Shown piece after piece: positions 28,192 through 31,990 of a stretch of 33,982 nucleotides of DNA. Origin of the DNA: Deltaproteobacteria bacterium (GTDB lineage: Bacteria > Myxococcota > JACRCW01 > JAFGSX01). The position numbers and the translations under genes were made by a program. The notes beneath the pieces were generated by a model, which did not search any database, had not been told where the DNA came from, and saw only the letters and a list, made by a program, of their open reading frames with translations. Location: positions 1 to 33,982 of the forward strand of contig JAFGSX010000130.1 in the NCBI GenBank assembly GCA_016934455.1, in the 5' to 3' direction. The stretch's first letter is position 1; every line of letters begins with the position of its first letter.

Positions 28192-29397
28192 ATGGGCATG
28201 TCGACGCTCTGCCCGGTCTGCCATGCGGTGGTGGCGGATGGTGGGGCGAGCTACTGCGCGAACTGCGGATGCGCGCTGGATGACGGGCTGTCCGCGGCGG
28301 CGACCGTCCCCGATCTAGACCGCGGCCAACTTCTGGAGCAACCGCTATCCGGGCCGCCGACGCATCGCGCCGCGGCCGTGGTCGCAGCGCCAGTGACGCT
28401 GCCGCCGTGGTTTGGCGAGGACGGTCAGGCCCCGGACACCGTGCCCGATCTCGATGCGCGCGCGATCGCCGGCAGAACTTTGACCACGGAGCCGATCGAG
28501 GCCAGACCGGCTCCGCGCGAGCTGGAGACAACTCTCGAGTTGCCCACCTCCAGCACAAGCGACGTCTTCGATCAGCCGACCCAGCCGGTCGATCGCCGAC
28601 AGCGGCCGGTGCCGTCCTGGCTGGCCGAGACGATCGGGCCGGCGTCGCAAGAGGAGCTGCCCCGGGACCCGTGGGCGGTCGACGATCCGAAAACCGGGAC
28701 GCAGCGGCCTTATGCCCTGGCGTCGACCACCCCATCCGGGCGAATGCCGGCCGCGGCAGCGCCGCTGGCGCCGGCGCTCTCGTCCACGGATACGCGGTCG
28801 GTCTTCGGGCCACTTGACGCGGCCCCGGTGCCAGAGCCTGCACCGCCGTCAGCACCGGCGATCGCGCTGGAGCTGGCAGGTGGCTCCCCCGGATCTCCGG
28901 CTGGCCAGTTTATCCCAAATCCATCGGTGGTCCCGGTCACCCCGTTTTCGGCTTCGAGCCTGCCGGTAGACTATCCCGAGCCGGATGCCGCGCCGGACGC
29001 GGCCGACATCGCACCCGAGCTTCCGCTCTACACGCCGCACGCGGCATTTCATCAGGACCAGCCCGCGAGCGCGATGGCTGCGCCTGCTCTGAGTTGCTGG
29101 CAGTGCGGCACCCCGATCGCGCCCCGCTCCACCTATTACCGGATCTCCGGCAGACCCTGGTGCGCCACCTGCGCTGAGCCCTACCTGCCAAGGCAGATCC
29201 GGAGCCTGGGCCAGGTGATGCTGCTGCTGGCAAAGCTGACGCTTCTCGTTGGAGCGATGGCAGCGACCTTCTGGTGGCTGTCGAGATACCGGCTTGTCGG
29301 TGCCATTATCGCCGGGGCGCTCATGTTTTTGCTGCTTTTTTTCAGACCCCGACGCAGTACCGGGATCAAGCGAATAGATCCGGTCAAACCCGGATAG
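28192..29397 (+). CDS. Zinc-ribbon membrane protein with Pro/Ala-rich linker
   Basis: N-terminal CPVCHAVVADGGASYCANCG; second CWQCGTPIAPRSTYYRISGRPWCATC; then two TM helices at the C terminus. Confidence 0.8.
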   Translation: MGMSTLCPVCHAVVADGGASYCANCGCALDDGLSAAATVPDLDRGQLLEQPLSGPPTHRAAAVVAAPVTLPPWFGEDGQAPDTVPDLDARAIAGRTLTTEPIEARPAPRELETTLELPTSSTSDVFDQPTQPVDRRQRPVPSWLAETIGPASQEELPRDPWAVDDPKTGTQRPYALASTTPSGRMPAAAAPLAPALSSTDTRSVFGPLDAAPVPEPAPPSAPAIALELAGGSPGSPAGQFIPNPSVVPVTPFSASSLPVDYPEPDAAPDAADIAPELPLYTPHAAFHQDQPASAMAAPALSCWQCGTPIAPRSTYYRISGRPWCATCAEPYLPRQIRSLGQVMLLLAKLTLLVGAMAATFWWLSRYRLVGAIIAGALMFLLLFFRPRRSTGIKRIDPVKPG

Positions 29398-29422: not shown

Positions 29423-29451
29423 TTGCATGGCAGACAAATGTCTGTTATTGT
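29423..29451 (+). promoter_or_regulatory. Candidate sigma70-like promoter with palindromic operator CAGACA-AA-TGTCTG in the spacer
   Basis: TTGCAT (29423-29428), 17-nt spacer, TATTGT (29446-29451); perfect inverted repeat 29431-29444. Confidence 0.5.
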
Positions 29452-29457
29452 GGCCCG

Positions 29458-31005
29458 GTGAACAGCTCCTCCAGGCCATCGACTCAACAATCTCCGGCGC
29501 CAGCTCGGGGCGAGCCGGATCTGGCGTGCGCGCTGGTGCCGGCGCTGCCGCTGCAGATCCTGCTGCGCTGCCACCCGGAATGGCGATCGCATCCGGTGGC
29601 CGTGGTCAGCGAGGACCGCCCGACCGGCCTTGTTGTCTGGCGCAACCAGCAGGCCCGGCGCGCCGGGGTGGCGGCTGGCATGCGCTATGTCGGGGCGCTG
29701 GCGCTGGCTCCTGATCTGCGCGCCGGCTGTGTCGCCGCGGCGGAGATCGAGACCCGCGCCGCGGATCTGACCGCCCTGCTCTGGTGCCACACGCCAGGCG
29801 TCGAGCCGTGCCCGGATCTGCCCGGGGTGTGCTGGCTCGATGCCTGCGGTCTGAGCCGGCTGTACCCCGATCTGGAGGGCTGGGCAGCCGCGATCCGGTC
29901 GACGCTGCAACAGGCTGGCTGGGTAACGCGGATCGCGGTCGGCCGGACCCGGTTTGGCACCCTTGCCGCGGCCCGGGTCTGTCGCCACCAGGTGGTGTTC
30001 GGGAGCGCGGCGGCCGAGCACGCTGCGGCCTGCCAGGTGCAGCTCGAGCGCCTGGATCTCGCCCCCGACATCCAGCGGGCCCTGGCCAGGCTGGGGGTGC
30101 AGACCGTGGGTGACCTGATCCGGTTGCCCGCAGGCGGGCTGCGGTTGCGCTTCGGGCCCGAGATCCACCTGCTGCACCGGCTGGCGAGCGGCGAGCCCGA
30201 CCGGCCGCTCGAGCCGGCGCGTCCGCCCGCGCCGATCCGCGGGCGGTGCCTGCTCGACGAGGCCGAGTCCGACAGCTCGCGGCTGCTGTTCGAGATCAAG
30301 CGGCTGCTGCACCCGTTGCTGCGAGAGCTGGCGCGGGGCGGTCGGGCGCTCGCCGCGCTGTGGATCCGGCTGCTGCTCGATCGCCGCGCCGCGGCGCGCT
30401 CGGTCGAGCAGAGGATTCAGCCGGCGCGGCCCACGCTCGAGGCCATGCAGTTGCTGGATCTGGTGCGGCTGTGGCTCGACCGGCTGCGGCTGGAGGCGGG
30501 AGCCATCGAGATCGCGCTCGAGGCGGAGGCGGTGGCAGCCACGGCCGAACAGCTCCGGCTGTTTTCCGATCAGCCGGGTCGCGATCTGGCGGCGGCCGAG
30601 CGGGCGCTGGCTCGGATCCGGGCCGAGCTCGGCGCGGCTGCGGTGGTGCGCGCCGAGGTGCGCGACGCGCACCTGCCCGAGGCGAGTTTTATCTGGTCGC
30701 CGGTCGCGCGCCTGGCGCTGGCTCGGTTCGCGGCCAGCGGGTCGCGGCCGCTGGTGCGGAGGCTGAACACGCGGCCGGTCGAGCTGCCGCCGCGGCTGTG
30801 GCTGGCGCCCGAGGGCTGGATGCTGGGGCGGCCCGGGCGCGGGGCGGTGGTCCGACTGCGCGGCCCGTACGTCGTCTCGGGCGGCTGGTGGGCGCGCGAG
30901 GTGGTGCGCGACTACCATTATGCCGAGACCGAGCGCGGCGAGATTTTATGGCTCTATCGCGATCGGCGGCGGCGGCGCTGGCTGATCCAGGGCGCGGTCG
31001 AGTGA
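29458..31005 (+). CDS. imuB: ImuB-like, predicted catalytically inactive Y-family DNA polymerase
   Basis: LACALVPALPLQILLRCHPEWRSHPVAVVSED...AARRAGVAAGMR-type region...PGVCWLDACGLSRLYPD...AVGRTRFGTLAAAR...; ImuB-type C terminus GEILWLYRDRRRRRWLIQGAVE. The GTG start is uncertain. Confidence 0.88.
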   Translation: MNSSSRPSTQQSPAPARGEPDLACALVPALPLQILLRCHPEWRSHPVAVVSEDRPTGLVVWRNQQARRAGVAAGMRYVGALALAPDLRAGCVAAAEIETRAADLTALLWCHTPGVEPCPDLPGVCWLDACGLSRLYPDLEGWAAAIRSTLQQAGWVTRIAVGRTRFGTLAAARVCRHQVVFGSAAAEHAAACQVQLERLDLAPDIQRALARLGVQTVGDLIRLPAGGLRLRFGPEIHLLHRLASGEPDRPLEPARPPAPIRGRCLLDEAESDSSRLLFEIKRLLHPLLRELARGGRALAALWIRLLLDRRAAARSVEQRIQPARPTLEAMQLLDLVRLWLDRLRLEAGAIEIALEAEAVAATAEQLRLFSDQPGRDLAAAERALARIRAELGAAAVVRAEVRDAHLPEASFIWSPVARLALARFAASGSRPLVRRLNTRPVELPPRLWLAPEGWMLGRPGRGAVVRLRGPYVVSGGWWAREVVRDYHYAETERGEILWLYRDRRRRRWLIQGAVE

Positions 31006-31850: not shown

Positions 31851-31958
31851 TGTCAAGAAAATATTGCGATGCAGCATAATTGCCGGCGCGGAAGGCCGCT
31901 GATTGGCCAATTTGCTGGATTATTTGCTTGACAAATGATGCGTTGCAGTAAGTAAACT
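31851..31958. promoter_or_regulatory. Divergent promoter region between SDR and acyl-CoA ligase genes with repeated GCGWTGCAGYA motif
   Basis: TTGACA on the minus strand (31856-31851) and plus strand (31928-31933); GCGATGCAGCA at 31866 and GCGTTGCAGTA at 31940. Confidence 0.5.
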
Positions 31959-31990
31959 TTTGCTCATGCAACAACGGACAGCGGGCGGAG

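Follow-up and report, generated by a model that had tools for sequence, protein, structure and literature searches.

The 33,982-nucleotide stretch of DNA analysed here (the window) carries at positions 29431-29444 a palindrome, CAGACAAATGTCTG (CAGACA-AA-TGTCTG), which is most probably the operator through which a cassette-type LexA protein, LexA2, controls the gene imuB; we put the probability of this reading at about 0.92. What the sequences themselves provide are the box, its position within a promoter, its restriction to the promoters of the mutagenesis cassette, and the domains and catalytic residues of LexA2. The sequence-only reading of this region had put the palindrome forward as a candidate SOS operator, and that proposal is strongly supported by an exact copy of the box at lexA2 and by boxes at 70 of 80 lexA2 loci in public genomes.

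The palindrome consists of two 6-nt arms with full complementarity and a 2-nt centre. As first described, this 14-bp perfect inverted repeat lies between a -35-like hexamer, TTGCAT (29423-29428, plus strand), and a -10-like hexamer, TATTGT (29446-29451, plus strand), and occupies part of the 17-nt spacer which separates them. The GTG start codon of imuB, at 29458, is located six nt past TATTGT, so that the imuB mRNA may be leaderless. Taken alone the hexamers are weak (3/6 and 4/6 matches to the consensus, respectively), and they were not called by a consensus promoter scanner. The same architecture is found at the lexA2 promoter, with a layout of TTGCAA-aa-CAGACAAATGTCTG-g-TATATT versus TTGCAT-gg-CAGACAAATGTCTG-t-TATTGT at imuB. 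The -35-like element is further supported by conservation of its TTG, which 58 of 69 related promoters have 7-9 nt upstream of the box as compared with one of 69 at a control offset, indicating that the box usually lies within the -35/-10 spacer. Base preferences on the other side of the box agree with the -10-like element, the commonest bases in relatives being T at +2 (57/69) and A at +3 (50/69).

The imuB gene (29458-31005, plus strand, with a frame open to 31005) specifies a 515-amino acid Y-family-like ImuB protein containing the Pfam IMS domain (PF00817). The protein is 45-48% identical to the ImuB proteins of imuA-imuB-dnaE2 operons in relatives, and 45% identical to that of the lexA2-imuA-imuB-dnaE2 operon of one genome of the same phylum, G051. 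Reading by eye revealed a clamp-binding-like EQLRLF in the C-terminal part, while the DinB-like N-terminal catalytic motif was not seen. The gene is solitary in the window and is followed by a short-chain dehydrogenase gene on the opposite strand. Directly upstream of imuB is a 401-amino acid ORF (28192-29397) that contains CxxC pairs resembling those of zinc ribbons, ends in a hydrophobic C-terminal stretch and gave no match in Pfam or NCBIfam. A separate intergenic inverted repeat, GTTGCA / TGCAAC with the arms 19 nt apart (31942-31972), is situated between the minus-strand short-chain dehydrogenase gene and a plus-strand gene for an acyl-CoA ligase-like protein; it is possibly the operator of a fatty-acid regulator.

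The window corresponds to contig C300 of a genome of 5.6 Mb in 613 contigs, estimated to be 82% complete with 4.8% contamination. A scan of this genome with CAGACANNTGTCTG gave two exact copies plus a single one-mismatch site, whereas the reversed-pattern control gave one; from the base composition approximately 0.15 exact copies would be expected. The two exact copies precede imuB in the window and lexA2 on contig C171 (27845-27858), and none is found elsewhere in the genome. The latter copy is 56 nt upstream of lexA2 and, as at imuB, inside the -35/-10 spacer. The evidence that lexA2 and imuB share an organism consists of the bin and of a tetranucleotide correlation of 0.92 between C171 and the window. 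These results bear out two expectations attached to the original proposal, namely that the motif would recur upstream of a lexA gene and that it would not be common at random sites; a third, that it would also precede recA, failed, with no CAGACA box at fewer than four mismatches at the recA locus of this genome. The one-mismatch copy (C383:2357) falls within an ORF for a cysteine-rich protein and was taken as a chance occurrence. Sites at two mismatches were likewise rejected as further regulon members, since 68 matches in the genome versus 46 in the control suggest that the signal is mostly background.

The genome encodes two LexA proteins, LexA2 on contig C171 and LexA1 on contig C181, which are 34% identical and are separated by a supported branch in the LexA tree. 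LexA2 scores 156.9 bits against TIGR00498 (cut-off 110.95) and has the two domains of the family, the LexA DNA-binding domain (PF01726) and the S24 peptidase domain (PF00717). The Ala89-Gly90 cleavage site and the Ser-Lys dyad (Ser123 and Lys160) are invariant in five homologues. The lexA1 promoter contains GAACATCTGTTC, a GAAC-N4-GTTC box, and the CAGACA box is absent from it, although an ACA-N2-TGT core is common to the two types of motif. Judged from these sequences, the different box at lexA1 and the absence of a CAGACA box at recA mean that the palindrome is not the general SOS box of this genome.

Public genomes were scanned with an alignment of LexA2, yielding 80 lexA2 loci, to which about a dozen different phylum labels are attached; these labels come from MAG titles and are reliable only as far as the bins are. 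In the 300 bp upstream of lexA2 the box is exact in 32 loci, has one mismatch in 29 and two mismatches in nine, so that 70/80 promoters contain it at ≤2 mismatches, compared with 0.95% of shuffled sequences. Nine of the 80 loci lack a box with fewer than four mismatches, although at several of the nine there is a symmetric palindrome of related sequence. Beyond the two arms the consensus extends to TTGCATAC-CAGACA-NN-TGTCTG-GTAT. Within 810 kb of sequence around the lexA2 loci, sites with ≤1 mismatch are confined to lexA2 promoters and one detached imuB. The box was originally thought to be lineage-specific; this part of the proposal has to be given up, as the box follows the lexA2-imuA-imuB-dnaE2 cassette under about a dozen phylum labels.

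Several observations were made in individual relatives. In G016 and G023 (loci L083 and L084) a second palindrome, AAGACGnnCGTCTGGA, is found after the main box and before lexA2, and the two are possibly tandem operators. Identical LexA2 proteins are encoded in MAGs labelled Binatia and Gemmatimonadetes (L110 and L112), which reflects either a mislabelled bin or recent transfer. A search of plasmids gave a best identity to LexA2 of about 42% among the matches listed, so that no members of the LexA2 clade were seen there. The genome of G051 contains 11 exact copies of CAGACANNTGTCTG, and 18 with ≤1 mismatch, against two in the control. One of the exact copies is at the lexA2 promoter; the other ten (L065, L069-L071, L073-L078) fit no cassette, mostly have G or C at the centre, and share no promoter context that could be found to be consistent, several being inside ORFs, including purH-like and dehydrogenase-like ones.

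In the 80 relatives lexA2 usually heads a lexA2-imuA-imuB-dnaE2 operon. In two genomes of the same phylum as the source, G051 and G014, imuA and imuB come after lexA2, with an exact box at both lexA2 promoters; in G051 dnaE2 is part of the same operon, the cassette being intact. In the source genome lexA2, imuA, imuB and dnaE2 are not in one operon. There C171 carries lexA2 and imuA, which are separated by two genes, imuB is on the window contig with a box of its own, and dnaE2 is on C337, where it is incomplete at the contig end with its promoter beyond it. The genes between lexA2 and imuA (L081:328-5168, on C171) encode a 1431-amino acid DUF4382/TIG/subtilase/FG-GAP protein and a 182-amino acid lipoprotein-like ORF, and the G+C content of this stretch is 0.60 versus 0.67. 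The two genes appear to be an insertion into the cassette. Comparable rearrangements occur in Planctomycetota: in L159 an exact box lies directly upstream of an imuB separated from imuA, and in L162 divergent lexA2-imuA and imuB-dnaE2 units have a box-like palindrome on each side.

In relatives the two arms of the box tend to vary together, and the variants tend to go along with particular residues in the recognition helix of LexA2. Symmetric variants include CATACA/TGTATG and CTGACA/TGTCAG, and substitutions of the third half-site base often affect both arms (CATACA/TGTATG, CCAACA/TGTTGG). LexA2 proteins in which the residue equivalent to E. coli Ser39 is Ala nearly always go with G as this third base; where the residue is Ser, Thr or Asn, the base is mostly T, C or A. 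A change of Val to Phe in the recognition helix accompanies CTGACA. For unique helix-site combinations at ≤2 mismatches the association has a Fisher p of 1e-4, a figure which excludes six further hand-picked sites used in one version of the test. A phylogeny-corrected test went in the expected direction with too few independent pairs for significance, and the covariation is therefore regarded as supporting evidence only.

Three other explanations were weighed. That the site is bound by the canonical LexA1, making imuB an atypical target within the ordinary SOS regulon, is very improbable, but it draws on the ACA-N2-TGT core which the two motifs have in common and on imuA-imuB operons of the phylum lacking LexA2, several of which (G006, G037, L041, L043, L045, L060, L061) carry a GAAC-N4-GTTC-like, LexA1-type box before imuA. 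Against LexA1 as the regulator stand four observations: its own promoter has GAACATCTGTTC in place of CAGACA, no CAGACA box was found at recA in this genome, the promoters of 25 other LexA genes of the phylum contain no CAGACA site with fewer than three mismatches, and in relatives the box accompanies LexA2. We consider it slightly less probable still that a different, unlinked transcription factor co-regulates lexA2 and imuB by way of the box. What speaks for such a factor is that binding by LexA2 is itself a prediction; yet LexA2, encoded immediately downstream, is the only regulator to recur at these promoters in about a dozen phyla, and the box variants track its recognition helix.

Short palindromes are common, and G051 has an excess of exact copies of this one; the window site might on these grounds be a palindrome that arose by chance, or the hairpin of a small RNA, with no regulatory role. 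This is the least probable of the explanations, given that the 5.6 Mb hold only two exact copies, each of them upstream of a cassette gene, and that the box recurs in 70 of 80 lexA2 promoters. A hairpin is further disfavoured by the location of the window box upstream of the likely transcription start, which implies that it is not in the RNA.

If the palindrome is the operator of LexA2, the following course of events would be predicted. A LexA2 dimer would sit on CAGACA-N2-TGTCTG between the imuB -35 and -10 elements and block RNA polymerase sterically. On DNA damage, RecA assembled on single-stranded DNA would trigger self-cleavage of LexA2 at its Ala-Gly bond; the operator would be freed, imuB would be made together with LexA2, ImuA and DnaE2, and ImuA, ImuB and DnaE2 would then carry out error-prone translesion synthesis. 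In most relatives a single operator before lexA2 would serve the whole lexA2-imuA-imuB-dnaE2 operon, while in the source genome, where the cassette is broken up, imuB would have kept a separate operator. Each step of this scheme, from dimer binding and repression to cleavage prompted by RecA and induction by damage, is extrapolated from what is established for the LexA family.

The LexA box of E. coli is CTGT-N8-ACAG. The window site would resemble it in being a palindrome for a LexA dimer (by prediction in our case) which overlaps a promoter; its half-site sequence and spacing are different, and the mismatch to the E. coli consensus pointed out in the sequence-only reading is thus confirmed. 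In Pseudomonas putida LexA2 is not known to control genes outside its cassette, and therefore the absence of the box before recA in our genome counts against a general SOS box but leaves the case for an operator of LexA2 untouched. P. putida has GTAC-N4-GTGC as its LexA2 box, which by inspection does not match CAGACA-N2-TGTCTG. As in the source genome, a LexA1 with a different box is also present and the LexA2 regulon is apparently limited to the cassette; unlike P. putida, the source genome has a broken-up cassette with a separate operator at imuB. A review, PMC3901139 (citing Abella et al. 2004, 2007), describes the P. putida lexA2-imuA-imuB-imuC(dnaE2) cassette as being under LexA2 control, that is, a second, cassette-encoded LexA heads and represses the operon. 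We liken the two LexA2 proteins by their role in the cassette, and a common clade is not implied.

The relatives of the source genome recovered in the search carry Myxococcota titles. The LexA box of Myxococcus xanthus, CTRHAMRYBYGTTCAGS (PMC9705874), resembles the lexA1 promoter of our genome and not those of imuB or lexA2. It has an ACA-N2-TGT-like core in common with the lexA1 box, and its outer half-site is GAAC/GTTC as opposed to CAGAC/GTCTG here. In the Bacteroidetes imuA-imuB-dnaE2 cassettes are subject to LexA-type control via CTAA-N5-TTAG (PMC8565304); the target genes are the same, but the protein is a non-canonical LexA and the motif is unrelated.

LexA-headed imu cassettes of the LexA2 type are already known, as are differences in the LexA operator from one bacterial group to another and the divergence of LexA motifs after duplication, with 17 motifs reported by 2021 (PMC8565304). 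CAGACA-N2-TGTCTG was not found as a LexA motif in a literature search whose coverage missed key LexA papers, and its novelty is accordingly likely rather than proven. On balance we lean towards a broader view, in which ATAC-CAGACA-N2-TGTCTG-GTAT is an undescribed LexA motif, a LexA2 clade has taken this operator along with its cassette into about a dozen phyla, in part through transfer, and inducible mutagenesis forms a private SOS circuit apart from the main LexA. A well-conserved LexA motif here appears to go with a mutagenesis cassette and not with the host lineage, in phyla where the SOS response has seldom been studied experimentally (Myxococcota, Binatota, Acidobacteriota, Planctomycetota, Spirochaetota, Gemmatimonadota and others). 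The box is a ready marker for such cassettes and regulon members in metagenomes, and the helix and half-site variants offer a natural series for studying shifts in LexA specificity. The imuB of the window, for its part, would be a gene torn from its operon that has its own predicted copy of the operator.
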